Below are positions 5,211 to 23,720 of a stretch of DNA of 64,000 nucleotides, piece after piece. Below the pieces are notes generated by a model. It had not been told where the DNA came from and searched no databases. It saw only the letters and a list, made by a program, of their open reading frames with translations. The DNA is taken from contig NZ_FUWS01000001.1 in NCBI RefSeq assembly GCF_900167435.1, positions 435,295 through 499,294 of the forward strand. Direction: 5' to 3'. The DNA is from Marinactinospora thermotolerans DSM 45154. GTDB taxonomy: Bacteria; Actinomycetota; Actinomycetes; Streptosporangiales; Streptosporangiaceae. The translations under genes and the position numbers were made by a program. The stretch's first letter is position 1. Every line of letters starts with the position of its first letter.

Positions 5211-7010
5211 ATGGATCGGCGTGAATCACCGAAGAGAAAGCCACCGAAGCAGCCTTTCCCGGGCGCGGATAGCGGGGAGTGGAAGCGGGCGACCGCACGC
5301 CAGGCCGCCCTGTGTACGCTGCACCAACTCGATCCGTCCACTCCAGGGCTGATGCTCTCAGTGGCATTCCGACTGCCTTGCGAAACCGATGTCGACGCGC
5401 TCAGAACATCGGTTCTCCGCCTGCTTCTGCGCTATCCGGTCCTGCGCTCGGTGTTCCGTCGCGGTGAATCAGGGTGGGAGGTGTACATACCGTCTCGCAA
5501 CAGCGTTCCCGGTAATGGGCATTGGTCTGTGGAAACGTTTTCTCCCACCGCCCCGGAAAGCGAGGTGACGGAGGCGCTACGGCGATTCTGCCGTGTGGTT
5601 CCCTCCCTTGATTCCGGCGCGCTGTTCCGCGCTCACCTGGTCACCGGGGCTGGTGGTGTTTTCCTGGCGGTGGCGATCCACCATTGCGTGGTCGACCTGT
5701 GGTCCACGGGCCTCCTCGCATCTCTCCTCGGCCTGTTCTACGAGGAGGAGACCGGCGGGGAGCCGGCGCCGTTCCCCCTCTCCCGCCCGCAGGACGGCCA
5801 GGCCCGGGAGAGGGCGCGCCGTGGCCGCGAACGGTCGTTGCCCTACTGGACCGCGCTCTACGCCGACCCGACACCGCCGCTGCGGCTCACCTCCCCGCCG
5901 TTTCCGGGCTCCACCCCCGCCGACAGCCCCACGCTCGCCCGCGAAGCCGTCCACCTGCCCATCGACCTGGGCCCGGAGCGGACCAGCGCGCTGGCGGCCG
6001 CGGCCAAGGCGCATCACACCACCCGGCACACCCTGCTGTTCGCCGCCCAGGCCCTGGCCGCGGCCCGGGTGACCGGCGCGGAGCGCCTCCCCCTCACGAT
6101 GCCGCAGCACCGCCGGTCCGCCTCGACGATGACGGTGGTCGACTTCGTCTCGTCCAATTACGTTCTCCCGCTTGACCTGCGGGGCGCCACCCCGGCGGAG
6201 ATCATCCGCGCGGTCGGCGGCCGCATCCGCGAGGCCCGGGCCCATCAGTGGGTCGACTTCGACGAGTTGGCCCTGCACCACCGCGCGGACGTGGCGCACC
6301 TGCCGGAGCCGGAGCTCAGTCTGGTCGTCTACGAGCGGACCCCCGGCGCCCCGGACTCCACCGCCGGTGTGCTTCTGGGCACCGGGGCCCTGCGGTCCGG
6401 GCCGCTCACCCTCACCCCGGTGTTCGGGCTGCCCAGCGTGGGACCGCTCCCCATCGTCACCGCCCTCGCCGAACACGGAGGGCGCCTTGTGGGGCGCCTC
6501 GAATTCGACCCCCTCCGCTGCGCCCCGCACACCGCCGAGCGGCTGCGCGAGGAGCTGATCGAGGCCGTCGACGACCTCATCGGTCCCCCGCAGGCCACGA
6601 TCAGGCGGGCGCGCGCCGCGGCCACGCCGCGGACCGGAGCGGCCCCGGCCACCGCGACGCCCGTCGAAGCGCTGACCCAGCGCGTCGCCGAAACGTGGGC
6701 GCAGACGCTCTCCCTGCCCACGGTGGGCCCAGACGACGACTTCTACACGCTGGGCGGACACTCCCTGCTGGCGGCCACCCTGGCGCGCGCGCTCTCGGTG
6801 GAGTTCGGCGTCGACGTCCGGCCCGGCGACGTGACGAACCACCCCTCTGTCCGTGAGCAGGCCCGGTTCATCGCCGGATGTCTCAGCGCCCCCGGAACGC
6901 GAAACGGCCCGGCGCCCGCCTCCGAGGCGATCCGTCCCATCCCCCGCCGCCCCCTGCACACCTTCGCCTCAGACGCCTCCCTCAGCAGCGAGACGGGAGA
7001 CGCACGGTGA
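5211..7010 (+). CDS. NRPS condensation-carrier (C-T) didomain protein
   Basis: A 599-residue NRPS fragment with no adenylation domain. The condensation domain spans about residues 25-440 and has an intact HHxxxD core (HHCVVD, near residue 156). A carrier domain follows at about 500-575 with the phosphopantetheine site LGGHSLLA. The start at ATG 5211 is set by the strong site GGAGGTGAA; the frame is open upstream without one. Because it lacks an A-domain, its carrier must be loaded in trans, most simply by the stand-alone adenylation enzyme at 19580-21061. As the first NRPS gene of the operon it could be the acyl-accepting starter module, joining a fatty acyl group to the first amino acid as in saframycin-type leader assembly. 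That function is inference. Confidence 0.85.
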   Translation: MDRRESPKRKPPKQPFPGADSGEWKRATARQAALCTLHQLDPSTPGLMLSVAFRLPCETDVDALRTSVLRLLLRYPVLRSVFRRGESGWEVYIPSRNSVPGNGHWSVETFSPTAPESEVTEALRRFCRVVPSLDSGALFRAHLVTGAGGVFLAVAIHHCVVDLWSTGLLASLLGLFYEEETGGEPAPFPLSRPQDGQARERARRGRERSLPYWTALYADPTPPLRLTSPPFPGSTPADSPTLAREAVHLPIDLGPERTSALAAAAKAHHTTRHTLLFAAQALAAARVTGAERLPLTMPQHRRSASTMTVVDFVSSNYVLPLDLRGATPAEIIRAVGGRIREARAHQWVDFDELALHHRADVAHLPEPELSLVVYERTPGAPDSTAGVLLGTGALRSGPLTLTPVFGLPSVGPLPIVTALAEHGGRLVGRLEFDPLRCAPHTAERLREELIEAVDDLIGPPQATIRRARAAATPRTGAAPATATPVEALTQRVAETWAQTLSLPTVGPDDDFYTLGGHSLLAATLARALSVEFGVDVRPGDVTNHPSVREQARFIAGCLSAPGTRNGPAPASEAIRPIPRRPLHTFASDASLSSETGDAR

Positions 7011-7072
7011 CGGCCCCGCGCTCAGCGGACGCGCCCCGGCCGATCACCTCCCCACCGCGTAAGGAGACCCCT

Positions 7073-10000
7073 GTGACCGACCTTGTGAACAGCGGCCCGG
7101 TCGCCGTTCCGGCCTCGCCGGGGCAGCAGCGCCTGTGGTTCCTCGGCGAGCTCAACGCCGCCGCGACCCGCGCCTACAACGTCTGCGTCCGCATCGACCT
7201 GCGGGGAACGCTCGACCAGCGCGCCCTCCAGGCGGCGCTCAACACCGTCGTGGACCGGCACGAGGCGCTGCGCACCGGCCTGCGGACCGTCGAGGGCCGC
7301 CTGCTCCAAGTGATCGTCCCCAGCGCGGCGGTGACGTTGCGCAGTACCGACACCGACGCCGAAGACCTGCCCCGGCTGCTCGCCGGCGAGGCCCGCCGCG
7401 GATGGCACCTGGCCCGGCCGCCGCTGATGCGCGCCTTGCTCGCAAGGCTCGACCCCGCCCACCACGTGCTGGCGTTGTGCGTGCACCACGCGGTGTGCGA
7501 CGGCCTGTCGTTGCAGATCGTGGCGGATGAGCTGTTGGCGGCCTACCGCGCGCACGCCGCCGGGCAGCCCCCCGCTCTGGCCGAGGTCGAGCTGCACTTC
7601 GCCGACTTCGTCGGGCACGCCTACCCCGAGCCGGCCGACGGCGCGCCCCCGGCGCGTAAGGCCGCCGAGAAGTACTGGGAGGAGACCCTCGCGGGAGCAC
7701 CGCGGTCATTGGACCTGCCCACCGACAGGGCGCGTCCGGCCCAGCCCTCCTTCTCGGGCGGACAGGTCCCGGTGGCCGTTCCCGCCGGCCTCACCGCGGA
7801 CCTGCGCGCGTGGGCCGCGCGCAACCGGACCACCTTGGCCGGCGTCTTCCTGGCCGCCTACGCCGCTGTGCTGAGCCGCAACGGCGGAACCGACGACCTG
7901 CTGATCGGCCTACCCGTGGCCAACCGCGACCGCCCCGAACTGGCGGGCGTCGTCGGCTACCTGGCCAACACCTGCCCGGTCCGCGCCGACCTGCGCGACG
8001 ACCCGGATCTGGGCACCCTTGCCCGGCGGATGGGACGGGCCGTCACCGGCCTGCTCCCCCATGCCCATCTCCCCTTCTCCGACCTGGTGAAGTCGGTCGG
8101 AGCCGAACGGACGCTCGACCGCAACCCGCTGTTCCAGGTCATGCTGAGCCTTCAGCAGGAGGCCACGACCGAATACCGGCTCCCGGACCTCACCGCCGAG
8201 GTGTCCGAGGTCGCCTCCGGTACCGCTCGGCTGGACCTGGCCCTGTTCCTCGTCGAGAGCGCCTCCGGCGGGTGCCGCGGCGTTCTGGAGTACTCCGATG
8301 AGCTCTTCGAACGCTCCACCGCCGAACGGCTGGTCCGGCAGTTCCTGGTCCTGTTGGAGCGGCTGAGCGCCGAGGACCCCTCCCCGGTGTCGGTGCTGCC
8401 GCTGTCCCGGGCCGAGGAGGGACAGGAGTCCGCCCGCTCCGCCTCACCCCCGTCGGCCCCTGAGCGGGACCTGGAGCCCCATGCCGCCTACGCGCCCTGG
8501 CCGGCGGTGCTGCGCCGAGCCGAGAGCCGGCCCGACCTCACCGCGGTGGTGGCCGATGACGGGACGCTGACCTACCGCGAACTGGTGGCCGCCGTCCGCG
8601 AAACGGCCACCGCACTACAGGCCGCCGGCATCCGCCCGGGTGACCGGGTGGGGGTGCACTGCCACCGCGGACGCCGCACCGTGGTGGCCCTGCTGGCCTG
8701 CTGGTGCGCCTCGGCCGTCTACGTCCCGGTCGCCCCCGACCTGCCGGTGGCCCGCAGGACGGCCATGCTCACGCAGGCCGGAGTCCGTTCCGTCCTCTGC
8801 GACGCCCCGGACGAGGTCCCCCCGCCCTTCGCGAACGCGACCCTGCCCATCGCCCTGGCCGCCGACTCCGGCCCGGGACAGGACTTCCCCGGCGACCGGG
8901 CGCCGCAGGCCACAGCGCCCGCCTATGTGATGTTCACCTCGGGCACCACCGGGCGACCCAAACCGGTGCTGCTCTCACACGGCAACCTCGCCGTCTTCCT
9001 CGAGGGCCTGACCTCGCTGATCGGCCTGGCGGAGAAGGAGACGCTGCTCGCGCTCACCACCACGACCTTCGACATCTCCCTGCTGGAGCTCCTCGGCCCG
9101 CTCGTCACCGGCGGCACCGTGCACGTCGCGGGCGATGACGTGGCCGCCGACGGAGCCACCTTGGCCGCGCTGCTCTCCCGGCCGGGCGTGACCACGGCGC
9201 AGGCCACCCCCGCGGTCTGGCGGCTGGCCCTGGACGGCGGCTGGCGCCCGCCCGCCGGGTTTCGCATACTGTGCGGCGGCGAAGCCCTGCCCGCCGACCT
9301 CGCCGAGGAGCTGACGGCCACGGACGCCCAGGTGTGGAACCTGTACGGGCCCACCGAGACGACCATCTGGTCGTGCGCCGCTCGGCTGACCCCCGGCTCC
9401 CCCGTGACCATCGGCTCCCCCATCCCCGGCACGGCGGCGGTCGTGGTCGACACGGAGATGCGGCCGGTCCCCCCGGGAATCTGCGGGGAACTGCTGATCG
9501 GCGGCCGCGGGGTCGGTCTCGGCTACCCGGGCCACCCCGGCGCCACCGCCGAACGCTTCCTGCCCGACCCGTGGCGCCCGGGCCTTCTGTACCGCACCGG
9601 CGACATCGTGCGGCGGCGCCCCGACGGCCGGTTGGAGTTCGTCGGCCGCACCGACGACCAGGTCAAGGTCCGCGGCCACCGGTTGGAGCCGGCAGAGGTG
9701 GAGAGCGCCCTTCGCGGCGCCCCCGGAGTCGACGACTGCGCGGTCACCGTCGCCGGCCAGGGGGCCTCGGCGCGCGTCGTGGCCCACATCGTGCCGGCCC
9801 CGGGGGCCGCCGCCGACCAGGCGTGGGCGCGCACCGTCCGGGAGCACGCCGCGCAGACGCTGCCCGAGGCCGTCGTACCGGCCGAACTGTATGAGATCGA
9901 CCGCGTGCCCCTCACCCCGCACGGCAAGGTGGACCGCCGCGCGCTCGCGGGGCTGGGACGCCGCATGGACCTGGGCGCCGAGTACACCGAGCCGCGCACC

Positions 10001-13000
10001 GAACTGGAGCGCCGCGTCGCCGATATCTGGCGCGACCTCCTCGGCACCGAGCGGGTCGGCGTGCACGACGACTTCTTCCTGGTCGGCGGCCACTCCATGC
10101 TCGCCGCGCAGCTGGTCCAGAGGATCGACGCCGAACTGGGGGTCCGCCTCCCCGTCAAACAGCTGTACCTGGAACCCACGGTGGACCGGATCGCCGCGGC
10201 GGTGGCGCGCGGTCAGGGACGCCTGGACGGCACGGGGTCGCGGGCGCAGGCGCCCGTGGGCGACGCCTCCCCCGACTGGGATTTCGTCCCGGGCGCAACG
10301 CCGTGGTTCGACGCAGAGCTGCACCGCGCTGTCGCCGACTTCGGTGCGACGGCCGCCCATCCGCTCTCCGTCGAGCAGCGTCGGGCGTGGCTGCTGGAGG
10401 ATCTCGGGGGCGCCCAGGCCGGTGTGCGTGCCCGGTTCCGCCTGGAGGAGCCGCTGGACTTCGCCGAAGCGCAGCGGAACCTCGGGGCCCTGGTGGCCGC
10501 CGAGGAGGCGTTGCGCAGCGTCTTCACCGAGGTCGCCGGGGTTCCCGTGCGGCTGGTGCTGCCCACCGCCGACATCGCCCTGTTCCGGGGCGGCCCCGAC
10601 GCGGCGGCCTTCGCGCACATCGCCGAGGAGCCGTTCTCCACGTCCACGGGACCGCTCCTGCGGGCGGTCCTGAGCGAGGGCGGAACCGAGCTGCTGCTCG
10701 TGGGGCACCGGCTGCTCTTCGACGAGACCTCCCTGGAGCACATCGCGGCAGCGGTGTCCGGCGCCCCGCGGGCCGCCGCAGCGCGGCTCAGCACCGTGCT
10801 GGCCCAGCGGCGGGAGTGGTTGGCGGGCCACGAGGCGCGCGCGGAGGCGGCCGAGTGGGCCGCGCGGGAGCAGCGGCCCGCGGCGACCGAGATCCCGCCG
10901 CCCGTGGCGCGCCCCGCCGTCCGCGGAGCCCGCAGGTCCCACGCCGCCGTGGACCGTGCCGGCCTGCCGCTCCAGGCGGTCGACACCCGTCTGTTGACCG
11001 CCGCCGCCCTCGCCGCCTGGCACCTGGTCCTCATGCGGCACTGCGGGCTGCGCACCGCGCGCAGCGGGCTCTTCCGGCCGCGTCCCGACTCCTATGGTCC
11101 CCTGCTCGGGGCCCTGGACGAGATGCGTCCCGTGCAGACCTCGGCCGAGGGCGGCACGATCGCCGAGGTGCTGCGCGCCGCCCTGGCCGAGCTCGACCAC
11201 ACCGCCCCGCGTCCGCCGCTGGCCTACCTCCTCGAACGCCACCCGCCCAAGCGGGACCTGAGCCGGGCGCCGTCCTTCCAGACGCAGCTGCGCGTCGTCG
11301 ACGCCCGCCCCCGTCCGCAGGGCGCCGGCCGAGGGCCGCGGCCCCTGCCCGAGGTCCCCTCGGCCACCGACGCCGATGTGGCGCTGCTCGTGCACGCGGA
11401 CGCGGACGTGCTGCGCGTGCGGGCCGACTTCGACGCCGACCTGTACACCGAGGCGTTCGTCCGCGGGGTGCTGGACGCCTACCTGCTGGCCCTGGAGGCG
11501 GTGCTCCAGGGCCCGGCGCCGGAGGCGGGCGTGGAGGATCTGCCGCTGCTCGCCCCGCAGGAGCAAGAGCGGGTCCTGGCCGCCGGCCGGGGGCCGCGGC
11601 GGGAGCGGGGACCGGAGACGGTCGTCCACCTCATCGGCGAGCGGGCACGGACGACCCCCCAGGCGACGGCCGTCCGCTGCCGGGGCGCCGGCATCGACTA
11701 CGCCACGCTGTGGGACCGCGCCTCCGTCGTGGCGGCGATCCTGGCCGAGGCCGGCGTGGCCCCGGGCGACCGGGTCGCCGTGATGATGCGGCGCACCCCC
11801 GACGCGCTGGCGGCGGCGATCGGGACCATGCGCGCCGGGGCGGTCCACGTCCCGATCGATCCCGCGCACCCCCGGCAGCGCGTCGAATACCTGTTGGACG
11901 ACTGCGCCCCGCGCGTGGTGCTGACCGAGTCCGCGGCCACGGGGGGCTGGGAACCACCCGGCCGGGTGCTCCGGCTCGACCAGCTCACCGCGCGCCCCGC
12001 CGGCGGCGCCCCGTTCGAGGCCCGGCCGGAGGGCATCGCCTGCCTGATCTACACCTCGGGCAGCAGCGGCGCGCCCAAGGGGGTGGAGGTGCCCCACGCG
12101 GGCCTGCTGAACAACATCGCCTGGCGCCAGGAAACCTGGGGGCTCACCCGTGAGGACCGCGTCCTGCACAACCACGCCTTCACCTTCGACCCCTCGCTGT
12201 GGGCCCTGTTGTGGCCGCTGACCGCCGGCGCCGCCGTCGTCCTCGCCTCCGATGAGGAGATGGGCGACCCCGTGGGGCTGATCCGGCTGCTGCGCGACGA
12301 AGGCGTGTCCGTCCTGGGCGGGGTGCCGTCGCTGATCGGGGCCTTGGCGGAGCACCCGGCCGCCGGGGAGTGCAGCCGGATCCGCCTCGTGCTCACCGGG
12401 GGCGAGGCCCTTCCCGAGGCGCTCATCACCCGCGTCCGCGGGCGGTGGCTGGCCGAGGTCGCCCAGCTGTACGGGCCCACGGAGGCGACCATCGACGGTT
12501 CGGCCTACCGGATCCCCCTTGGAGCCGCCGAGGAACGGCTCCCCGCCCCCGTCCCCATCGGCGGGCCGCTGGCCAACACCCAGATCCACGTCGTCGACTC
12601 CGAGCTGAGGCCGGTCCCCGACGGGGTGGTCGGCGAGATCGTGCTCGGCGGTGCCGGGGTCGCCCGCGGCTACCACCGCCGCCCCGGCCTGACCGCGGAG
12701 CGGTTCCTGCCCGACCCGTTCGGCCCTATCCCGGGCGCGCGCCTCTACCGCACCGGCGACCTCGGCCGGAGACTGCCCGACGGCGCCGTCCAGTTCCTCG
12801 GCCGCGTCGACGACCAGGTCAAGGTCCGCGGGTACCGGGTGGAGCTGGGCGAGGTGGACGCGGCCCTGACCAGCCGCGCCGATATCCGGGAGGCGGCCTG
12901 CGTGGTGCTCGACGCGGGCAGCGCCTCGGCGCGGCTGGCCGCGGCCATCGTCGCCGAGGAGGAGGCGGGGCCGGCCGCGGAGGGCTTCCGCGCAGCGCTG

Positions 13001-14632: not shown

Positions 14633-15684
14633 TGGATTGGAGTCCGTCCCAGTCGGCCGACATCCCGTTCCATCTGGGAATCCCCGAAGAGCTGACCGCC
14701 CTGCCCCCGATCGGCCCGGTGCCAGACCTGGTCGCGCCGATCACCGAACGGACCGGCGCCATCGATGTCCGCGGTGATCTCTCCCTGTTCGCCGAGGCGA
14801 TGCGGGCCGCGCGCAAGACGCTGCCCCTCCCCGCCCCCGAACCGGTCGAGGCGGACCCGAGGGAGTCGCAGGCCAACCGGGACAACGACGAGGCGTTCGG
14901 CATCGTCCGGGTGGCCGGACCGCCGCTGCTGCTGATGCTCGACGGTCTGCTCAAGGCCGCCGCCGGGGTGGTCGAGGCGGCGGCGGACTACGGGACGCGC
15001 ATTCCCGCGGAGGAGTGGGCCGACCTGGTGCACGGCTTCGACACGGTGCTCGGCTGGCTCGGCGGGGACGACCGGCCGTCCTCTCCGCCGCCCCTGGCCT
15101 TCCCGCCCGAGGAGGGGCCGGAGTCCAACGCCGACGATGGCGTCCTCGTCCGGTGGGTGCGAGGCCACCACCTGTTCATGGCGATCTGCCAGGCGTGCGC
15201 GCTCGCCCTGGCCCACGCCCGCCAGGCGCAGCAGCGCGGAGCCCTGGCATCCGCCCGCACCGCCCTCGGGGTGGCCGCCGTGATGATGGGCAGCGGACGC
15301 GCCACGCTGCGCTTCGCCGCCGATGCCAGCCCGACCGACTACACCACGCGGATCCGTCCCACCCTCATGCCGCCCGTCGCCCCTCCGAGGATGAGCGGCC
15401 TGCACTGGCGGGACCACGAGGAGCTGATCCGTCAGATCCGAGCCGTGAGCCGTTCCTGGGCCCAGTTCGCCCGGCACGCCCCCGGGCAGGTGGAGGAGTT
15501 CGAGTCGGTCCTGGCGACCACCTACGACGCGCACCGCAACGTCTGCGCGCACTTCGTCGGCGAGGAGCCGAGCCTGCTCGCCTCCTCGGGGTCGCGCGGT
15601 CCGGCCTCCTTGTCGGGCCCCAGCGTGCTGGGCCGGCTGCGCCGCCAAAGGCTGTCGCTGCTGTCCTTGCCGCCGCGGGAGTGA
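14632..15684 (+). CDS. Heme-dependent tyrosine hydroxylase, SfmD/LmbB2-like
   Basis: A 350-residue mainly helical protein. I assign it to the SfmD/LmbB2 group of heme enzymes, relatives of tryptophan 2,3-dioxygenase that use peroxide to hydroxylate tyrosine at C3. This family has an unusual HxnHxxxC heme motif. Here His301-Arg-Asn-Val-Cys305 supplies the HxxxC part, and an upstream pair in RGHHLFMAIC (about residues 178-187) can supply the other His. The start overlaps the NRPS stop (TGATG), with AAGGAGCC inside the NRPS end. The position directly after the reductase-ended NRPS and before the M28 peptidase matches sfmC-sfmD-sfmE. Probable role: ring hydroxylation in making the tyrosine-derived building block, before or after O-/C-methylation. 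Confidence 0.78.
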   Translation: MDWSPSQSADIPFHLGIPEELTALPPIGPVPDLVAPITERTGAIDVRGDLSLFAEAMRAARKTLPLPAPEPVEADPRESQANRDNDEAFGIVRVAGPPLLLMLDGLLKAAAGVVEAAADYGTRIPAEEWADLVHGFDTVLGWLGGDDRPSSPPPLAFPPEEGPESNADDGVLVRWVRGHHLFMAICQACALALAHARQAQQRGALASARTALGVAAVMMGSGRATLRFAADASPTDYTTRIRPTLMPPVAPPRMSGLHWRDHEELIRQIRAVSRSWAQFARHAPGQVEEFESVLATTYDAHRNVCAHFVGEEPSLLASSGSRGPASLSGPSVLGRLRRQRLSLLSLPPRE

Positions 15685-15737
15685 CCTGTCGCCGAAACCC
15701 GCCAGACCACCGTCGGCTCCGAAGAAGGAGAACGTCC

Positions 15738-18047
15738 ATGCCCCCCATCGCCAAGGCACTGACCGGGGTCGGGCTGCCGCTGGCCCTTGTGGCCGGGGCG
15801 GCGGCGGCGATCCGGGCCATGCGCCCGCCCGCGCCGGTCACTGCCGAGGCTCCGCCCGACCACTTCTCGGCGGAGCGGGCGCAACGCCATCTGCACACGA
15901 TCGCGCGGGAGCCGCGGCCCACCGGCTCCCCCGCCGCGGAGAAGGCCCGAGCCTACCTGGTCGAGGAGTTGACGCGGGCGGGATTCGACGTCCACGTGCA
16001 GGAGACCGTGGCCGCCGAGGGGTACGGCCGCATGCCCTACGGCCCCGCCAACCTGGCCGCCGGCAAGATCCACAACATCGTGGCCCGCCTGCCGGGAACG
16101 TCCCCCGGAGGCAAGGCGGTGCTCCTGACCAGCCACTACGACTCGGTCGCCCAGGGGCCCGGGGCCAGCGACGCCGGCGTCCCGGCCGCGGCGCTGGTCG
16201 AGGTCGCCCGCGCGTTGCAGAGCCGCGGTCCGGGCCGCAACGATGTCGTCATCGCCCTCACCGACGGCGAGGAACTGGGGCTCTTGGGCGCCAAAGCGCT
16301 CTTCGAGGAGGAGCCGTTGGCCCGGCGGGTCGGCGCGATGCTGAACTTCGAGGCGCGCGGCACCTCCGGCCCCGTCCTGATGTTCGAGACCGGGTCCGGC
16401 GAAGCGGACCTGGTGGCGGCCTTGACCCGCAGCGGCCTTCCCCATTTCGTCGATTCCCTGTTCGGCGAGGTGTACCGGCGCATCCCCAACAGCACCGACT
16501 TCGCCGTCGCGCGCGCGTGGGGGATTCCCGGACTCAACTTCGCCCACATCGGCGACTTCGCCTACTACCACACGCGCCTGGACGACATCGAACATGTCGA
16601 TCCCGCCAGTCTGCAACACCACGGGGAGCTCGCACTCGCGCTCGCCGAGCGGCTGCGCAACACCGACCTGTCCGCTCTTGAGGAGCGGGAGTCGGCCTAC
16701 TTCACCGTCGCCAACGGCGTGACCCTCTCCTATCCCCGGTGGGCGGCCGGCCCGCTGGCCGCCGCCGCGGCCGCGCTCTGGGCGGGGGCCCTCGCGCGCT
16801 GGATGCGAAGGTCCGGCATCTCGCCGCGCGACCTGTTGCGCGGGCAGGCGGCGCTGTGGGGGCGGCTGGCGGGAGGAGCGTTGGCCGCCCAGGGGCTGGT
16901 GTCCCTGCTGGGCCGGGTCCGCCCGGAGTTCCGCCGCCACGGCGACTTCTACCGCTCCGAGGAGCTGTTCGCCACGCTGGGGCTGCTCTCGATGGCCGGT
17001 GCGGCCACCCGCCGACCGGGCTTGGACGAGCTCCGGATGGCCTCGGCCGCGGTCCCGCTGGCCGCCGCGGCCCTGGGCTGCGCCCGGTGGCTGCCCGGCG
17101 CCGCGCATCTTCCCGCCCTGCCCCTGGTGGGCAGCGGGATCGCCCTGCTCACGGCCACCTCCCCGAGGTCGAGCGTCCGCCTCCTCGGGCAGGTGGCGGC
17201 GGCCGTCCCCGCCGTGGCGCTGCTCGCCCCGCGCGCCGCGCTCACCTACCAGGGGCTGACCCCCCGGATCGCCGTACCGGCCATGGCGCTGCTACAGCTG
17301 GGCGGAGAGCTCGCCGGACCGCTCATGTGGCGCCAGACCGGGAAGCGGACGCGGCGCCTGCTGCTGGGGACCTGCCTGACGGCCGCCGGCGCGCTGGCCC
17401 TACGCCAGTTCCGGTTGGCGCGCCCGACGCCGGACCGCCCCCACCCCTATGCGCTGATGTACCTGGTCGACACCGACCGGCGGCGGGCGTTCTGGCTGAG
17501 CACCGACGACGCGCCGGGGGAGGCCACCCGGCCGTTCCTGGGTGACCGCCCCGGCAAAGGCCCCCTCGACGTCTACTTCCCGGGGTGGAACAGGGACCTC
17601 CTGCACGCGCCGGCAGCCCTGCTGGAGCTGCCACCCCCCGTGCTCGACGTGGTCTCGGAGAAAACGCACGAGCACGGGCGGCGCGTGGTGGTCGACGTGT
17701 CCTCCCCCCGAGGAGCCCGCCAGATCTCGCTGGCCGTGCGTTCCGGCGCGGTGCGCTCCTGGTCACTGGTCGGGGGGCCGGCTTCCGTCCCCACCTCCCC
17801 CGCCGACGACGGGCCGTGGGAGTTGTGGCTGCACGCCGTCCCCGCCGAAGGTTTCCGCCTGGTGCTGGAGCTGACGCGCGAACCGGTGCTGCTGCGCGTG
17901 GCCGACCGCTCCGACGGCCTCCCTAACCCGGCCGGGGACGACCGCTTCCCCACGCCCGCGGGGAACCCCGCCCACACCCCCGCGGCCTGCCTCGACGTCG
18001 AGGGATGGTCCAACGGGACCCTGGCCGTCACGGAGAAGACCCTGTGA
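15738..18047 (+). CDS. Membrane-bound M28 metallopeptidase (SfmE/NapG-like)
   Basis: A 769-residue protein. A short N-terminal hydrophobic segment (about residues 8-24) is followed by an M28 Zn-peptidase domain (40-320). Metal ligands are visible: SHYDSV, GASDAG, DGEELG with the catalytic Glu-Glu pair, and YYHTRLDDIEH. The next 250 residues hold several hydrophobic helices (roughly 330-560), and the last 200 form a soluble tail. This is the layout of ER-type/actinobacterial membrane M28 peptidases. In saframycin and naphthyridinomycin pathways, SfmE and NapG remove the N-terminal acyl or acyl-peptide leader at the membrane, turning an inactive prodrug into the active amine. The same role is inferred here from the gene order and from the need to remove the NRPS leader. 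Confidence 0.85.
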   Translation: MPPIAKALTGVGLPLALVAGAAAAIRAMRPPAPVTAEAPPDHFSAERAQRHLHTIAREPRPTGSPAAEKARAYLVEELTRAGFDVHVQETVAAEGYGRMPYGPANLAAGKIHNIVARLPGTSPGGKAVLLTSHYDSVAQGPGASDAGVPAAALVEVARALQSRGPGRNDVVIALTDGEELGLLGAKALFEEEPLARRVGAMLNFEARGTSGPVLMFETGSGEADLVAALTRSGLPHFVDSLFGEVYRRIPNSTDFAVARAWGIPGLNFAHIGDFAYYHTRLDDIEHVDPASLQHHGELALALAERLRNTDLSALEERESAYFTVANGVTLSYPRWAAGPLAAAAAALWAGALARWMRRSGISPRDLLRGQAALWGRLAGGALAAQGLVSLLGRVRPEFRRHGDFYRSEELFATLGLLSMAGAATRRPGLDELRMASAAVPLAAAALGCARWLPGAAHLPALPLVGSGIALLTATSPRSSVRLLGQVAAAVPAVALLAPRAALTYQGLTPRIAVPAMALLQLGGELAGPLMWRQTGKRTRRLLLGTCLTAAGALALRQFRLARPTPDRPHPYALMYLVDTDRRRAFWLSTDDAPGEATRPFLGDRPGKGPLDVYFPGWNRDLLHAPAALLELPPPVLDVVSEKTHEHGRRVVVDVSSPRGARQISLAVRSGAVRSWSLVGGPASVPTSPADDGPWELWLHAVPAEGFRLVLELTREPVLLRVADRSDGLPNPAGDDRFPTPAGNPAHTPAACLDVEGWSNGTLAVTEKTL

Positions 18048-18070
18048 ACCTCGCACGAAAGGAGCCCCCC

Positions 18071-18268
18071 ATGTCCGCCTTCCTGTCGGACGACCCGGAC
18101 TACCCCTGCACCGTGGTGGTGAACGAGGCCGGAGACCGCTCGCTGTGGCCGCGAAACCGCGACATCCCCCCGGGCTGGCGCGCCGCGGGTTTCTCCGGGA
18201 CCAGGGCGCACTGCCTCGCCCACATCGAAGGGCTCCACGCCTCCGCCTCCGAGGTCTCCCCCTCCTGA
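18071..18268 (+). CDS. MbtH-like protein, adenylation-domain partner
   Basis: A 65-residue protein with the family signature: NEAGDRSLWP, then PPGWRAAGFSGTRAHCLAHI. MbtH-like proteins bind NRPS adenylation domains and support their solubility and activity. It sits 23 bases after the M28 peptidase with an AAAGGAG site and is translated with the NRPS operon. Likely partners are the A-domains of the dimodular NRPS or the stand-alone A enzyme. The position after the peptidase corresponds to sfmF as I recall it. Confidence 0.96.
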   Translation: MSAFLSDDPDYPCTVVVNEAGDRSLWPRNRDIPPGWRAAGFSGTRAHCLAHIEGLHASASEVSPS

Positions 18269-18315
18269 CATCGAAGTCGTGGCGAGACGGACCGTTCAAG
18301 CAACCAGGAGGCGAA

Positions 18316-19542
18316 ATGCCGGACAGCACCGGCCGGGCCGACGATCGGCTGGTCGCACGCAGGCTCGACGCCGATGAGATCGCGGATTTCCACGACGTCG
18401 CCGCCGCCGTGTTCTTCAACCGCCCCGGCCCCCAGGAGCGCCGGCGCTACCTGGACCGGTTCGGCTCCGAGCGCTTCCACGGCGTCTTCCACCGTGAACG
18501 GCTGGTCGGCGGCGGGGGCGCGTTCGCTCGGACCATCACACTGCCCGGAGAGCGTCAGTGCCCGGCCGCGGCCATGACCGGCATGTCGATCACCGCCACC
18601 CACCGTCGCCGCGGCGGGCTCACCGCACTGGTACGCGCGCAGCTGGACGAGACCTACCGGCGCGGCGAGCAGCCCATCAGCATCCTGCTGGCCTCGGAAA
18701 GCGGCATCTACCGGCGGTTCGGTTATGGGATCGCCACGCGCCAGGCCCGGATCCGGGTGCCCGGCCGGGCGGCGTTTCGGCCGGGCCTGGACACCGACGG
18801 CCTGGTCGACGAGGTGGAGTGCGCGCCGGATGACCCCCGCCTGCTCCTGCCCTACACGGAGGTGTCCGCCCAGCGGACCGGGTGGCTGCAGCGCGACCAC
18901 CGGCACTGGGCGCAGATCCTCGGCGCCGACGCCCCCGACGACCCTCCCCGGTTCGCCGTGCACCCGCAGGGGTACGCGGTGTACCGGGTCGCCCCGGCGT
19001 TCAACGACCTCGGCGCCGCCTGCACGGTCACGGTGGTGGAACTGGTCGCGGCCACCCCGCAGGCCTACCGGTCCCTGTGGCGTCACCTCCTCGACCTGGA
19101 CCTGGTGGCCGAGATCGCGGTGGACTCGGTGGCGCCCGACGAACCCCTCCTCGACCTGCTCTCCGACCTGCGCGCGCCCCGGCCACAGCTCAGCGACAAC
19201 CTCTGGGTGCGCGTGGTCGACCTGGAGCGCGCGCTCGGCGCCCGACGCTACGCCCGCCCCGTCGAGGCGGTGCTGGAGGTCACCGACCGCCTCTGTCCAT
19301 GGAACCAGGGCCGGTGGCGCCTGAGGGTCGAATCGGACGGTACGGCGAACGCCCACCCCGTCACCGCCGCCCCCCACCTACGGATGGACATCGCCGACCT
19401 CGGCGCCCTCCTGTTGGGCGGCACCCGGCTGGGGACGCTGGCCGCGGCGGGCACGGTCGACATCGTCGATCGCGGCGTCGCCCGCGACCTGTCCGCCGCG
19501 TTCCTGGAGGACCGGGAACCGCACTGCCCGGAGATCTTCTAG
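18316..19542 (+). CDS. Eis-like GNAT acetyltransferase with SCP2-type tail
   Basis: A 408-residue protein of the Eis family. It has an N-terminal GNAT domain with the acetyl-CoA loop in ITATHRRRGGLTALVRAQ, a second GNAT-like region, and a sterol-carrier-like C-terminal domain. Two catalytic hallmarks are present: the Tyr in SGIYRRFGYG, and a chain ending in Phe408, whose carboxylate acts as base in Eis enzymes. Eis proteins acetylate amines of diverse substrates, including aminoglycosides. Inside this operon, between MbtH and the adenylation enzyme, it could acetylate a pathway amine or protect the producer by masking the freed N-terminal amine. Both are inference; I do not recall an Eis homologue from characterised THIQ clusters. 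Confidence 0.83.
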   Translation: MPDSTGRADDRLVARRLDADEIADFHDVAAAVFFNRPGPQERRRYLDRFGSERFHGVFHRERLVGGGGAFARTITLPGERQCPAAAMTGMSITATHRRRGGLTALVRAQLDETYRRGEQPISILLASESGIYRRFGYGIATRQARIRVPGRAAFRPGLDTDGLVDEVECAPDDPRLLLPYTEVSAQRTGWLQRDHRHWAQILGADAPDDPPRFAVHPQGYAVYRVAPAFNDLGAACTVTVVELVAATPQAYRSLWRHLLDLDLVAEIAVDSVAPDEPLLDLLSDLRAPRPQLSDNLWVRVVDLERALGARRYARPVEAVLEVTDRLCPWNQGRWRLRVESDGTANAHPVTAAPHLRMDIADLGALLLGGTRLGTLAAAGTVDIVDRGVARDLSAAFLEDREPHCPEIF

Positions 19543-19579
19543 CCCCGACGCCCCACGGCCCCTCTCCGAGGTGAGGAAC

Positions 19580-21061
19580 ATGCTTTTGGGACAGTCCTCG
19601 ACAAGCCTGCACGGCAGACTCTGGCAGGTCGTGCGTGAGCGTCCGGACGCGGTGGCGGTCCGCGACGACTCGCGGGCGCTGACCTACGCCCGGCTGAAGC
19701 AGCGGGCGTCGGCCCTGGCCCGCGCGTTGCACGACGCCGGTGTGCCCCCCGGCGGCCTGGTGGGTCTGCGCCTGCCCCGCGGGGTGGACATCGCGGTGGG
19801 GATCATCGGCATCCTGGCGCACGGATCCGCCTACGTCCCGATCGATCCGCACTACCCGGAAGAACGGCAGACCTATATCGAGGAGGACGCCCGGCTCTCG
19901 ACCATCGTGGAATGGGACGAGGACGGCGGTGCTCCCCGCGTGGCGCGCACCGGCCGGCCCCCCCACGCGAAGGAGGAGATCGCCGAGGGGGCCGCCTACG
20001 TCATCTACACCTCCGGGTCCACCGGACACCCCAAGGGGGTGGTCGTCGGTCACCGCCAGGTCCTGGCGATGCTCGACGCGGCGCGCCCCCTCATCGCCCC
20101 CACGCCCGGTGACGTGTGGACGCTCTTCCACTCCCCCTCCTTCGACTTCAGCGTCTGGGAGCTGTGGGGAGCCCTGTTGAGCGGGGGCCGGCTGATCGTG
20201 GTCTCCAAAGAGAGGACGCACGACCCGGTGCGCTTCCTCGACCTGCTGCGGGCCGAAGGCGTCAGCGTCCTCAACCAGGTCCCCACCGAATTCGGCTACC
20301 TCGTGTCCGCCCTGGAGGGCGACCCCGCTCCGCTGCCCGCGCTGCGCCGCGTCTTCCTCGGCGGGGAGGCCGTGAACCTGGAGACCGTCGCCCGCTGGAA
20401 GCGGACCGGTGCCGCGCCGCAGGCCCGGATGTACAACCTCTACGGCCTCACCGAGACCGCGGTCGTCGTCAGCAGCTGCCCGCTCGACCCGCCACCCCCG
20501 AGCGCCGATCCCGGGCACACCCCCATCGGGCGGCCGCTGCCGCATCTGCGGGTCCGCCTCGTCGACGACACGCTGAAAGAGGTCCCCGAAGGGGAACCGG
20601 GCGAGCTCCTGGTGTCGGGGGCGGGGCTGGCGTCGGGCTACCTGAACCGGCCCGAGACCACGGCGCGGCGGTTCGTGACGGTCGACGGAGAGGCGGCCTA
20701 CCGCACCGGCGACTGGGCGAGGCTGTACGGCGCCACGCTCTACTACCTCGGGCGCCGTGACCGCCAGGTCCAGCTGCGCGGCCACAGGATCGAGCTGGGG
20801 GAGATCGAGGCGGCCCTGCGCAGACATCCCGGGGTCGAGGAGTGCGCGGTGGTCGACGTCCTCAGCCCTCTGGGCGAGACCATGCTCGCGGCGCACTTCG
20901 TCGCGGCCGCGGAGAACGCACCCTCGGCGGGGGAACTCCGCGCCTTCCTCCAGGAACACCTCCCCCGGCAGATGGTCCCCGCGCTGTTCCGCCGGCAGCC
21001 GACCATGCCCATCAGCGGCACCGGGAAGACCGACCTGGAGGCACTGCGGAAAATGACCTGA
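19580..21061 (+). CDS. Stand-alone NRPS adenylation enzyme, threonine-like code
   Basis: A 493-residue amino-acid-activating enzyme with all A-domain cores: YIYTSGSTGHPKG-type A3 (VIYTSGSTGHPKGV), FDFSVWELWG (A4), YNLYGLTET (A5), YRTGDWARL (A7), and the catalytic Lys in SGTGKTD (A10). There is no carrier domain. The pocket residues I read are DFWNFGLVVK, closest to the threonine code DFWNIGMVHK (7 of 10). It probably adenylates threonine or a related amino acid and loads it in trans onto the C-T protein at 5211-7010. ATG 19580 is preferred over GTG 19571 because GAGGTGAGG is correctly spaced for it. Code-based prediction is uncertain at three positions. Confidence 0.87.
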   Translation: MLLGQSSTSLHGRLWQVVRERPDAVAVRDDSRALTYARLKQRASALARALHDAGVPPGGLVGLRLPRGVDIAVGIIGILAHGSAYVPIDPHYPEERQTYIEEDARLSTIVEWDEDGGAPRVARTGRPPHAKEEIAEGAAYVIYTSGSTGHPKGVVVGHRQVLAMLDAARPLIAPTPGDVWTLFHSPSFDFSVWELWGALLSGGRLIVVSKERTHDPVRFLDLLRAEGVSVLNQVPTEFGYLVSALEGDPAPLPALRRVFLGGEAVNLETVARWKRTGAAPQARMYNLYGLTETAVVVSSCPLDPPPPSADPGHTPIGRPLPHLRVRLVDDTLKEVPEGEPGELLVSGAGLASGYLNRPETTARRFVTVDGEAAYRTGDWARLYGATLYYLGRRDRQVQLRGHRIELGEIEAALRRHPGVEECAVVDVLSPLGETMLAAHFVAAAENAPSAGELRAFLQEHLPRQMVPALFRRQPTMPISGTGKTDLEALRKMT

Positions 21062-21121
21062 CCCCGTGCGCTCCACCAGAAGAGACGACCGTCCACTCGT
21101 CCGCGTCATGAAGGGAACCCG

Positions 21122-21781
21122 GTGATCACCTCCGAGATCTTCAGCCCGAAGCTCTACGAATACCTGGTCGAACACAGCACTCCGCCGGCCTCGGTGTTGC
21201 AGGAACTCGCCGCGGAGAACGAGCGCCGGCACCCGGACTCGGTCATCATGCAGATCAGTCCGGAGCAGGGCAGGTTCATGACGCTCCTCGCCCAGCTGTC
21301 CCACACCCGCGACATCATCGAGATCGGCACGTTCACGGGCTACTCGTCCCTGTGCCTGGCCCTTGGAATCCCGGACGACGGCACCATCTTGACCTGCGAC
21401 ATCAACGAAGAGTGGGCGTCGATGGCCCGCCGCTACTGGGAGAAGGCCGGCGTGGCGCACAAGATCACCTCGCGCATCGGCCCCGCGGTGGACACCCTGC
21501 GCGCGCTCCCCCGCGACCCGATGTTCGACATGGCCTTCATCGACGCCGACAAGCAGAGCTACATCGACTACTGGAACGAAATCGTCCCGCGCATCCGTCC
21601 CGGCGGCCTCATCCTGGCCGACAACACCCTTTACGCGGGCGAGGTCATCGACCCCACCAAGACCTCCGACGCCGTCCAGGGCATCCGCGGCTTCAACGAC
21701 CACGCCCTGGCCGACGAGCGGGTCGAACTGGTGCTGCTGTCCGTCGGCGACGGCCTCACCCTCGCCCGCAAGAAGAACTGA
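21122..21781 (+). CDS. SAM-dependent O-methyltransferase (CCoAOMT/SafC-like)
   Basis: A 219-residue class I methyltransferase of the caffeoyl-CoA/catechol O-methyltransferase type. The SAM loop is IIEIGTFTGYSSL, and the metal-binding and catalytic segment is FIDADKQSYIDYW with RPGGLILADNTLYAGEV. These enzymes use Mg2+ and two adjacent hydroxyls. SafC of saframycin Mx1 and SfmM3 belong to this type, so methylation of a 3,4-dihydroxyphenyl (DOPA-like) precursor made by the hydroxylase at 14632 is the natural prediction. The GTG start has GAAGGGAACCC just upstream. It follows the adenylation gene by 60 bases in the same direction. Confidence 0.9.
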   Translation: MITSEIFSPKLYEYLVEHSTPPASVLQELAAENERRHPDSVIMQISPEQGRFMTLLAQLSHTRDIIEIGTFTGYSSLCLALGIPDDGTILTCDINEEWASMARRYWEKAGVAHKITSRIGPAVDTLRALPRDPMFDMAFIDADKQSYIDYWNEIVPRIRPGGLILADNTLYAGEVIDPTKTSDAVQGIRGFNDHALADERVELVLLSVGDGLTLARKKN

Positions 21782-21857
21782 CCCCGAAGGCCCCGGCGAA
21801 GACGCACTCCCGCCCGCCCCTATGGAAAGCGACCACGTTGACACACCAGGAGGCCCA

Positions 21858-22685
21858 ATGACGCAGAACGCCCCGGACAGCTCCAAGGTCGCCGACGCCT
21901 ACGACGAGATCACCACCGTCGTGGCGAAGCTGTGGAACGGCAACCTCCACTACGGTTACTGGGACGACGAGAACGACCAGAGCACCTTCGGCCAGGCCCT
22001 GGACAGGATGACGGACGAGGTCATCTCGCGCCTCGACCCGCGCCCCGGGCAGCGCATCCTCGACATCGGCTGCGGGACCGGCTCCCCCGCCCTGCGCCTC
22101 GCCCGCCGCTACGAGGTCGAGATCGTCGGCATCTCGATCAGCCCACGCCAGATCGAGGTCGCCACCGAAGGCGCCCGTGCGGCCGGGCTGGACGACCGGG
22201 TGCGCTACGAGGTGGCCGACGCGATGTCACTGCCCTACCCGGACGATTCGTTCGACGGCGTGATGGCCCTGGAATCGATGGTCCACATGCCGGACAAGGT
22301 CCAGGTGCTGCGCGAGATCGCCCGCGTGCTGCGCCCCGGGGGCCGGGTCTCCATCGCGGACCTGACCGTGCACGAGGTCTCGGCGCAGGAACGCTACAAC
22401 TCCGCCGGCGCGTCCTCGACCGAGGAGACCTACGCCATGGCGAGGTTCGACGAGTACGGTGACCTCCTCGAAAAGGCCGGGCTGATCCCCACCGAGGTCA
22501 CCGACGCCATGCGGAACACGCGGCGCTCGATCCGCTACTTCATCGAAGGGGCGCTCTCCTGCCGCGACGAGTATGTGCGGGCGATCGGCGTCGAGGAGTT
22601 CGAGAAGCGGGTCGAAGAGGCGCGCAGGATCGAACACACCCCGGAGCTCGGCTACGCCCTGGTCTCCGCGCGTAACCCCGGCTAG
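21858..22685 (+). CDS. SAM-dependent methyltransferase (UbiE-like, putative C- or N-MT)
   Basis: A 275-residue class I methyltransferase with the SAM motif ILDIGCGTGSPALRLA (about residues 63-78) and motif II region FDGVMALESMVHMPDK. Start ATG 21858 follows the site CCAGGAGGC. It is the last gene of the rightward NRPS operon in the window. In saframycin-type pathways a C-methyltransferase (SfmM2) and an N-methyltransferase (SfmM1) act on the tyrosine unit and scaffold; this sequence cannot be assigned to one of these from motifs alone. The region to its right is decayed DNA, so this is probably the right edge of the cluster. Confidence 0.88.
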   Translation: MTQNAPDSSKVADAYDEITTVVAKLWNGNLHYGYWDDENDQSTFGQALDRMTDEVISRLDPRPGQRILDIGCGTGSPALRLARRYEVEIVGISISPRQIEVATEGARAAGLDDRVRYEVADAMSLPYPDDSFDGVMALESMVHMPDKVQVLREIARVLRPGGRVSIADLTVHEVSAQERYNSAGASSTEETYAMARFDEYGDLLEKAGLIPTEVTDAMRNTRRSIRYFIEGALSCRDEYVRAIGVEEFEKRVEEARRIEHTPELGYALVSARNPG

Positions 22686-22879: not shown

Positions 22880-23600
22880 GCAGGACCCACGCCGGCACCG
22901 GCGCCTTCGACCGGTTGCGCGCGGCGTCCAGGATCACCATCGAGCTCGCATGGACCAGACCGTCGACGGTCAACGGGATCATCCACGCCGCCATCCCGGT
23001 CTCGCCGTACCGGGTGACCACGGCATGGGCGTGCCGGCAGGACACCACCACGGCCACCGCCGCCACACCGCGGACCGCCGGCCTGGCCGGCTCACGGATC
23101 GACCGATCCGCACCGTTGCCGCCCCTCGCCGGTGGGCAGGCGGCAGGTTCCGCCGCAGGCCCACTGTTCCAGCCGGGCCAGGGCCGCTTCGGGCCGGTGC
23201 GTCCGGCCGCCTCAGGGGGCGGATGGGGCCCGGCGGCCAACTGGGCGGCGGTGATCCCGCCCGGGCCGGCGAGGATCTCCTCCGGTCCCCGGTAGGCGTC
23301 GCCGTCCGCAGGACCATGGCCCGGATCAGCGATGATCAGGGACCGTCCCAGTGCGCGGAGAGGACTTCGGCGAGCAGGGCGGGGATGGGGTCGCGCGGGC
23401 GTTGACCGCGCACGCGGAAGGCGTCGGGACAGGTATCGGCCTGTCCGCGCTCGCCCGCTCGATGACGGCGTCGGCCAGGCCCGACCGGGCGAACCAGTAC
23501 GTGAGCGCCGACGCAGACGCTGGGCCGCCCACCACCGCCTCCATGACCGTCGGCGAGAGGGCGCGCCCTTGCCAAGGCGATGGCGACAGGACGGATCCGT
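22880..23600 (-). pseudogene. Decayed gene with DUF2637-type membrane segment
   Basis: No intact gene fits this stretch, but the minus strand shows protein-like segments in changing frames. At about 22880-23075 the reading VVTRYGETGMAAWMIPLTVD, followed by GLVHASSMVILDAARNRS, is typical of DUF2637 proteins found on actinomycete plasmids and integrative elements. Upstream, in another frame, LARLEQWACGGTCRLPTGEG is readable near 23110-23190, and further up YWFARSGLADAVIERA near 23440-23500. The frame changes show a gene or two broken by several indels. It marks the boundary between the NRPS cluster and accessory DNA and suggests a former mobile element here. Confidence 0.5.
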
Positions 23601-23720
23601 CCCCACCCGGGTCCACATCAGTGCCTGGTACGCGCCCGGTCCGGCCGATGGGCCGGGCATGGGAGAACTCCGGGGGCGTTTCCGCTACCACCGCCGTTCC
23701 ACACCAGTAAGGTCTCCCGA

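Follow-up and report, generated by a model that had tools for sequence, protein, structure and literature searches.

What does the biosynthetic gene cluster at the left end of a 64,000-nucleotide stretch of Marinactinospora thermotolerans DSM 45154 (contig NZ_FUWS01000001.1, positions 435,295 to 499,294; hereafter the window) produce, and how does its nonribosomal peptide synthetase (NRPS) line begin? The cluster, of the saframycin/renieramycin type, consists of 16 genes that occupy window positions 1–22685 and about 7 kb further left (negative coordinates denote positions left of window position 1). Judged from these genes, its product is very probably a saframycin- or renieramycin-like bis-tetrahydroisoquinoline. 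Tetrahydroisoquinoline (THIQ) antibiotics include trabectedin-class anticancer agents, and the Pictet-Spengler module of saframycin assembly is reported to require a cryptic fatty-acyl leader (PMC6274189), so the way in which the leader is attached matters for engineering.

Assembly line and product class

The core of the cluster is formed by two NRPS genes. NRPS 1 (5211–7010, + strand) encodes a condensation (C) domain in the starter position followed by a carrier (T) domain, with no adenylation (A) domain. NRPS 2 (7073–14632, +; read for Pfam from 6878) encodes a protein of 2519 residues with the order C-A(Gly)-T-C(Pictet-Spengler type)-A(modified Tyr)-T-R, R being a reductase domain, and fuses the equivalents of SfmB and SfmC into one chain. 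These assignments combine Pfam, a domain map whose models were built from the window's own domains, A-domain codes and trees. For comparison we read the THIQ-like loci of Streptomyces sp. TBY4, S. albus subsp. chlorinus, S. nanshensis, Kibdelosporangium banguiense, Nonomuraea typhae, Streptoalloteichus hindustanus, Streptoalloteichus tenebrarius and S. sennicomposti, plus the annotated renieramycin (ren) plasmid; the first five are those against which the C, A and R domains were placed in trees.

Each of the three C domains clusters with the same-position C domain of those five loci and of a genome from another genus (G127), with support of 100/100 for the starter, the glycine and the Pictet-Spengler positions alike. 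The glycine A, the tyrosine-type A and the R domain likewise group with their same-position counterparts in the five loci (100/99 each). On these trees, the C, Gly-A, Tyr-A and R domains are positional orthologues of those in THIQ clusters. The C tree contains one duplicated and shortened G127 row, and at the junction of the starter clade with L055/L053 the program flagged a possible meeting of long branches.

The codes of the A domains follow the same pattern. At the glycine position DILQLGLIW, which we take to be a glycine code, is found in the window, G127, N. typhae, K. banguiense, TBY4 and S. albus chlorinus, with DILQLGLVW in S. nanshensis. The tyrosine-type code DPWGLGLID is identical in the window, G127, N. 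typhae, K. banguiense and TBY4, and was read by eye in RenF too; for the third A domain of S. albus chlorinus and S. nanshensis the script misread positions 299/301. The third C domain carries an altered HHxxxDG motif, in which the first histidine and the final glycine are lost in all eight aligned sequences, the second histidine is retained in seven (K. banguiense being the exception) and Asp133 in all eight. This alteration fits the published role of the SfmC C domain, which performs Pictet-Spengler chemistry (PMC6274189). By its C and R clades and this motif, the terminal C-A-T-R module is of the Pictet-Spengler type.

The peptidase adds a further line of evidence. The SfmE-like M28 protein (15738–18047, +; Pfam M28) falls in a clade of 10 THIQ peptidases (100/100), as opposed to four generic M28s, and the seven metal-site and catalytic columns that we checked are identical in all 14 rows; one outgroup row (L109) was dropped from this tree and L118 had no usable gene.

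The SfmD-type hydroxylase

The haem tyrosine peroxygenase gene (14632–15684, +) matches no Pfam or NCBIfam family, and was identified by the match of its residues 6–347 to solved SfmD (6vdp, "3-methyl-L-tyrosine peroxygenase", E 5.2e-71) and by its tree. Residues H301 and C305 are invariant in a seven-sequence alignment. Among the three proteins tested against solved SfmD, TBY4 scored 550 bits, S. nanshensis 344 and the window 243.

In a survey of the order, 18 of 345 genomes, the host genome (G000; 5.66 Mb in 37 contigs) included, have a match at E<=1e-3, the G127 copy being 91% identical; of 394 genomes sampled across the class, G000 and G023 alone match at E<=1e-20. A plasmid search returned seven records, and more than 70% of the query was covered in four ren plasmids only. 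Scanning 84,980 species with one short peptide pattern from the hydroxylase alignment gave 74 pattern matches, which resolve into 39 loci; since a single short pattern was used, other relatives may be missed.

The resulting tree has 38 rows, from 36 of the 39 loci plus G000 and G127 (L061, L064 and L070, with no usable gene call, were left out). The window copy belongs to a clade of 17 rows (100/98). A separate 12-row clade consists largely of shorter proteins and is, we infer, LmbB2-like, the tree containing no LmbB2 sequence. Seven rows of the 17 are the window pair and five THIQ-like loci, and the other ten come from other or undecided loci; the Streptoalloteichus and S. sennicomposti hydroxylases fall just outside. 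With ten of 17 clade members from non-THIQ or undecided loci, the product class cannot be read from the hydroxylase by itself; it is the NRPS and the peptidase that decide it.

Could the locus then be a pyrrolobenzodiazepine (PBD), lincosamide or other reductase-ended pathway? Haem tyrosine hydroxylases serve PBDs too. They also occur in lincosamide pathways, as LmbB2 (PMC3851162), and PBD lines terminate in C-A-PCP-RE, a comparable reductase-ended module (PMC9570651). We consider such a pathway extremely improbable: the trees of the C, A and R domains and of the peptidase, together with the M28/MbtH/UvrA gene context, speak against it, and a PBD or LmbB2-type assignment was rejected on the C, A, R, hydroxylase and M28 trees. 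The original prediction, which had read the locus as THIQ and had offered grouping with PBD or unrelated clusters as the outcome that would overturn it, is borne out in this respect, as C, A, R and M28 group with THIQ loci. Of the individual trees it proposed, those of the reductase and the peptidase placed the proteins with THIQ pathways, and that of the hydroxylase gave a mixed clade.

Hydroxylase homologues of this kind were also seen beside other assembly lines. In Streptomyces sp. HM190 (L038, 2–8977) an NRPS whose three A domains are identical over the stretch compared lies beside an SfmD homologue and SfmM2- and SfmM3-type methyltransferases, and this line probably makes a peptide that contains modified tyrosine but is no THIQ; seven further loci (L039–L041 and L043–L046) share the hydroxylase and both methyltransferases with it.

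Extent and integrity of the cluster

A single blastn alignment of 29,848 bp at 91.7% identity, covering -7014 to 22788, joins the host genome to G127, where the whole cluster is present in unchanged gene order. No second long match was found in the stretches compared, of which the TetR side of the G127 contig leaves 1.76 kb only. The rpoB regions of the two genomes are 90.2% identical (4,267 columns); a cluster at least as similar as a very conserved housekeeping region suggests acquisition by horizontal transfer.

All 16 genes have full or near-full G127 counterparts without internal stops, and their dN/dS values (0.106–0.367) indicate purifying selection between the two genomes. Chance origin of the cluster is excluded because all 16 genes are kept in this state in a second genus. 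The same observations bear on the idea of a decaying cluster that has lost its acyl ligase, its module-1 A domain and its C-methyltransferase. Those three functions are indeed missing, but with 16 intact genes under selection in two genera and an A domain available in trans, decay is very unlikely.

Thirteen of the 16 genes share one strand; gene calls come from a custom script and gene starts are approximate. The enzyme classes named in the original prediction lie where it had placed them, by Pfam and, for the hydroxylase, by the 6vdp match. The gene order that it had singled out, reductase-ended NRPS, SfmD homologue, M28 peptidase and MbtH-like protein (18071–18268, +; Pfam MbtH), is repeated without change in TBY4, S. 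albus chlorinus, Streptoalloteichus tenebrarius and S. sennicomposti, and is reportedly that of the sfm cluster itself. Its account of the operon was incomplete in content and extent: a GNAT/SCP2 Eis-like protein (18316–19542, +; Pfam Acetyltransf_9/SCP2_2) and a stand-alone A domain had not been listed, and the cluster continues left to -7014, through genes for a UvrA-like protein (-3170 to -828, +), a major facilitator superfamily (MFS) protein (-6092 to -4638, +) and a TetR regulator (-6987 to -6409, -).

The start of the line

Where does the first residue come from? In NRPS 1, Pfam places the C domain at residues 29–465 and the T domain at 490–554, which leaves no space for an A domain, and the stand-alone A protein (19571–21061, +; Pfam AMP-binding) is the sole spare A domain of the cluster. 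It is probable that this protein loads the NRPS 1 carrier domain in trans. RenK (L105, 27122–30967), which includes a C-T stretch without an A domain in our domain scan, gives an A-less first module a precedent. The stand-alone protein was also considered as a displaced ancestral module-1 A domain, and this was rejected: in the A tree it pairs with an A. madurae A domain (100/99), outside the module-1 A clade.

No alanine-activating module-1 A domain was found in the cluster, NRPS 1 having no A domain and the stand-alone code, DFWNFGLVV, being different. Elsewhere the module-1 code is DLFNNALTY (K. banguiense, TBY4 and Streptoalloteichus hindustanus) or DLWSTGMTY (N. typhae, S. albus chlorinus and S. 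nanshensis); the script missed module 1 of K. banguiense and TBY4, whose Ala-type code was read by eye. Six of nine positions of the stand-alone code match DFWNIGMVH, which we take to be a threonine code, and the best match among solved chains judged to hold a single A domain is 5n9w, presumably the threonine enzyme Thr1. These likenesses are only suggestive, and we propose a threonine-like first residue tentatively, at somewhat less than even odds.

The source of the acyl leader is the second peculiarity. Both an acyl ligase and an SfmM2-type C-methyltransferase are known from saframycin (PMC6274189, PMC13109631). In TBY4 and the two Streptoalloteichus species the line opens with a fused acyl-ligase-type domain; for the TBY4 domain the best specific NCBIfam fits are fatty-acyl-AMP-ligase models, at scores below their cut-offs. 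The original prediction expected such a ligase to the left of the window, and this expectation failed: no match to the TBY4 acyl ligase at E<=1e-30 lies in the 30 kb to the left, where Pfam detects no AMP-binding domain in 10 of the 17 genes left of the cluster, the other seven being of at most 241 residues. The left flank instead carries the P450, UvrA-like, MFS exporter and TetR genes.

A start without a ligase is shared with other loci. N. typhae, K. banguiense, S. albus chlorinus and S. nanshensis begin directly with C-A-T, with no ligase nearby in the stretches read. In TBY4 the orthologue (100/100) of the NRPS 1 C domain comes after the acyl ligase, and on that ground the NRPS 1 domain should accept an acyl donor. 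From these relationships we moderately favour direct priming by acyl-CoA or acyl-ACP (acyl carrier protein) over a ligase.

The acyl ligase-ACP of saframycin, absent from the cluster and from the 30 kb to its left, counts as a lack against the saframycin-like reading. The rival to direct priming is a leader activated by an acyl-AMP ligase encoded elsewhere and passed to NRPS 1 on a separate carrier protein. Characterised THIQ systems begin with an acyl ligase (PMC6274189, PMC7570522). Three acyl-ligase-like genes lie outside the cluster in the host genome, one of them some 71 kb further right on the contig of the cluster, which makes a ligase in trans possible; among the four other C-start loci, the genome of S. 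albus chlorinus has two matches of this kind, that of K. banguiense four and that of N. typhae one. On the other side, G127, with the same intact cluster in a genome rated 100% complete, has no TBY4-type ligase at E<=1e-30, nor has the draft genome of S. nanshensis, and the four C-A-T loci have none nearby. Altogether a ligase in trans seems rather unlikely.

Solved structures gave direct priming no help. The NRPS 1 C domain matches them weakly, at best with 46 bits to an epimerisation-type domain of PvdL; second comes a C domain of CDA synthetase I. As a control, the C domain of the glycine module was compared too, and it matches ordinary C domains strongly. The PvdL domain contains EGHGRE-like and VGWFTSAYP stretches, which we take to be epimerisation-domain motifs. 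Solved structures were accordingly dropped as proof of an acyl-accepting starter C domain, and our odds for an acyl-CoA or acyl-ACP donor were lowered.

Direct priming is still preferred. The architecture is novel in part: the claim that the domain arrangement matches no known THIQ cluster does not extend to the ligase-free start, which four other loci share. Among the loci examined, the cluster is set apart by its C-T first module, the fusion of the glycine and Pictet-Spengler modules, the lack of an SfmM2/RenB enzyme and an added GNAT gene. In the titles and abstract openings of the literature searched, most subscription papers being beyond reach, no THIQ line without an acyl ligase or with threonine is described.

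Methylation of the aromatic building block

Two methyltransferase genes close the operon. The first is of the catechol O-methyltransferase (COMT) type (21122–21781, +; Pfam Methyltransf_3) and RenC-like, with 40% identity to RenC and 44% over 178 residues to the Kibdelosporangium protein. The second (21858–22685, +) encodes a class-I methyltransferase, possibly an N-methyltransferase, whose closest solved relatives are 6uv6 (a D-glucose O-methyltransferase), 3bus and MitM. It resembles SfmM2-type enzymes weakly and over a short part only (29% identity across 117 of 362 positions), and gives no match at 1e-8.

The original prediction had listed every enzyme class but the acyl ligase as present; the classes it named were found, but an SfmM2-type C-methyltransferase is missing from the cluster as well. 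No close copy exists in the host genome or in G127 (best 29% and 26% over parts). Within the 38 hydroxylase loci an SfmM2/RenB-type enzyme occurs in 16, the query's own and 15 at 59–78% identity; RenB is 57% identical to the Streptoalloteichus SfmM2-type copy. All seven THIQ loci whose contig reaches far enough have one, and with ren this makes eight of eight comparable loci. The absence counts against the saframycin-like reading, and leaves two options: either the second methyltransferase took over C-methylation, or the product has no ring methyls.

Under the takeover reading the aromatic unit would still be C-methylated, with the second methyltransferase replacing SfmM2, and the product would be a ring-methylated saframycin analogue whose N-methyl group is absent or supplied from elsewhere. 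The code DPWGLGLID is the same as in loci with SfmM2, which speaks mildly for it, and the acceptor of a class-I methyltransferase is not readable from matches such as those to 6uv6, 3bus and MitM. These nearest solved relatives nonetheless argue against it. So does the distribution of its relatives, which favours missing ring methyls: seven loci contain them, at 38–41% identity, together with an SfmM2-type enzyme, and there they probably do another job, and the SfmD locus of Nonomuraea zeae combines a COMT, the same type of second methyltransferase and an SfmD homologue with no SfmM2. Takeover is a serious minority option, and we rate the absence of ring C-methylation an even chance.

The N. 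zeae locus (L050, 9878–18209) also holds BBE, P450 and FAD monooxygenases besides its SfmD homologue, COMT and class-I methyltransferase; no NRPS domain and no SfmM2 match lie within the 20.8 kb read.

Oxidation, maturation and self-protection

Four oxidases belong to the cluster. P450a (-824 to 378, +; its 3' end at 1–378 in the window; Pfam p450) is 51% identical to its TBY4 homologue, 52% to that of Kibdelosporangium and 96% to that of G127. The BBE-type FAD oxidase (445–1914, +; Pfam FAD_binding_4 and BBE) has homologues at 48–49% in four THIQ loci and 42–44% in two more. The RenA-like FAD aromatic monooxygenase (1922–3412, -; Pfam FAD_binding_3) reaches 52–57% in six THIQ loci, 44% in N. 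typhae and 45% with RenA, and the RenG-like P450b (3435–4847, -; Pfam p450) 43% with RenG and 40–51% in five THIQ loci.

According to PMC9570651, the membrane protein SfmE removes the fatty chain and SfmCy2 deaminates, both extracellularly. Hydrophobic segments at residues 4–28 and 479–498 suggest that the M28 protein is likewise a membrane leader peptidase, presumed to remove the acyl leader. Two findings count against the saframycin-like reading. No twin-arginine signal was found in the window BBE, nor in that of G127, in the frame up to the preceding stop codon, as against six of eight BBEs of other loci that have one (two in TBY4, two in S. albus chlorinus, one each in S. nanshensis and N. 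typhae); the two Streptoalloteichus BBEs also have none. The late BBE oxidation may consequently be intracellular or act on a different substrate. There is also no short-chain dehydrogenase/reductase (SDR) like NapW/SfmO1, the type that reduces the hemiaminal, among the 16 cluster genes (the genome was not searched for NapW-like SDRs); one SDR gene lies 24 kb to the left, outside the stretch shared with G127, and homologues of the NapW/SfmO1 type can sit outside the cluster (PMC8648761).

UvrA-type self-protection is known for THIQ producers through NapR1/DinR8 (PMC7570522, PMC8648761), and the UvrA-like and MFS genes fit it. The GNAT homologue occurs, among the loci compared, only in the host genome and G127; as a guess, it might N-acetylate the freed side-chain amine. 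In the N. typhae THIQ locus (L037, 5294–8371, -) the FAD monooxygenase and BBE are joined in one 1025-residue frame, and a second BBE is present.

Comparison with known systems and proposed pathway

With the saframycin A (sfm) cluster of Streptomyces lavendulae the locus shares a glycine module, the Pictet-Spengler C-A-T-R module, SfmD, M28 and MbtH, but it has no acyl-ligase-ACP, alanine A domain or SfmM2, and its SfmB and SfmC equivalents are fused; this comparison is at sequence level for solved SfmD only, with the functions of SfmA, SfmB and SfmC taken from PMC6274189. The TBY4 locus (L036) has the NRPS modules, SfmD, M28 and MbtH, as well as homologues of the UvrA, MFS, BBE, FAD monooxygenase, both P450 and TetR genes. 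It differs in a first protein of the form AL-C-A(Ala code)-T (AL, acyl ligase; a carrier is presumed after it), in separate glycine and Pictet-Spengler proteins, in its own SfmM2-type enzyme and in the twin-arginine start of both BBEs.

The ren plasmid (MK748462) is similar in RenC (40%), RenG (43%), RenA (45%), RenD (34%) and the C-T stretch of RenK, and differs in the acyl-ligase-type domain at the RenK N-terminus, in the C-methyltransferase RenB and in having no stand-alone A domain among RenA–RenL (domain scan). The four C-start loci share the orthologous C domain in first place and the lack of an acyl ligase, whereas their module-1 A domain is in cis, their glycine and Pictet-Spengler proteins are separate and an SfmM2-type enzyme is present in all three whose contig reaches that far. 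The naphthyridinomycin and dnacin (nap/din) clusters have in common a leader peptidase, an FAD-linked oxidase, UvrA resistance and the N-acyl leader logic (PMC7570522); their AL-PCP loading protein, three-module NRPS and hydroxyethyl (transketolase) genes have no equivalent among the 16 genes here.

The case that the cluster works like saframycin assembly is strong, while the statement that it is the saframycin A cluster fails on the acyl ligase, the alanine module and the C-methyltransferase. Every chemical step proposed here is drawn from work on saframycin and dnacin. The SfmD homologue would hydroxylate tyrosine and the COMT would O-methylate it. The C domain of NRPS 1 would join a fatty acyl group, from acyl-CoA or acyl-ACP, to the amino acid loaded by the stand-alone A domain, NRPS 2 would append glycine, and its R domain would release the acyl-dipeptide as an aldehyde. 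In two rounds of condensation with the tyrosine-derived unit, the Pictet-Spengler-type C domain would turn this aldehyde into the pentacyclic core and its DNA-alkylating hemiaminal, and the two P450s, the FAD monooxygenase, the BBE oxidase and the second methyltransferase would complete the rings. The MFS protein would export the acylated prodrug, the M28 peptidase would cleave off the acyl leader and the UvrA-like protein would protect the producer.

By this analogy the product is likely a new bis-THIQ, possibly ring-unmethylated and with a different side-chain residue. That every peculiarity holds at once is rather improbable, namely a bis-THIQ built from non-C-methylated 3-hydroxy-O-methyl-tyrosine, with a threonine-like residue in place of alanine beside glycine, an acyl-CoA-primed first C domain and a trans A domain forming a natural split-module line. 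Together with its four relatives, the window cluster suggests that such a line can begin with no acyl ligase fused to it. If the proposal is right, a trans A domain of separate specificity would offer a natural point at which to exchange the side-chain residue, and a product lacking the ring C-methyl would leave one ring position of the scaffold free. Being compact (29.8 kb in the shared stretch) and intact in appearance, the cluster makes these ideas readily testable by heterologous expression.

Neighbouring features

The methyltransferase gene at 23580–24968 was considered as a cluster member and rejected, being an FxLD-system enzyme (TIGR04364, 437.8 bits against a cut-off of 320) outside the stretch shared with G127; the FxLD locus to the right of the cluster is probably a separate locus for a ribosomally synthesised and post-translationally modified peptide. 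The window contains no tRNA gene. An AT-rich run at 33778–37648 (-), with a GC content of about 0.55–0.60 against about 0.70–0.75 in most of the window, is possibly an acquired island; its three genes encode a 665-residue protein without a Pfam match, a 446-residue PNP_UDP_1 protein that matches part of the PADLOC effector model PDLC00759 (E 5.4e-20), and a 242-residue protein with NUDIX and NrtR winged-helix domains. Further right, 38647–39519 encodes a PET-hydrolase-like protein (PF12740, 447 bits).

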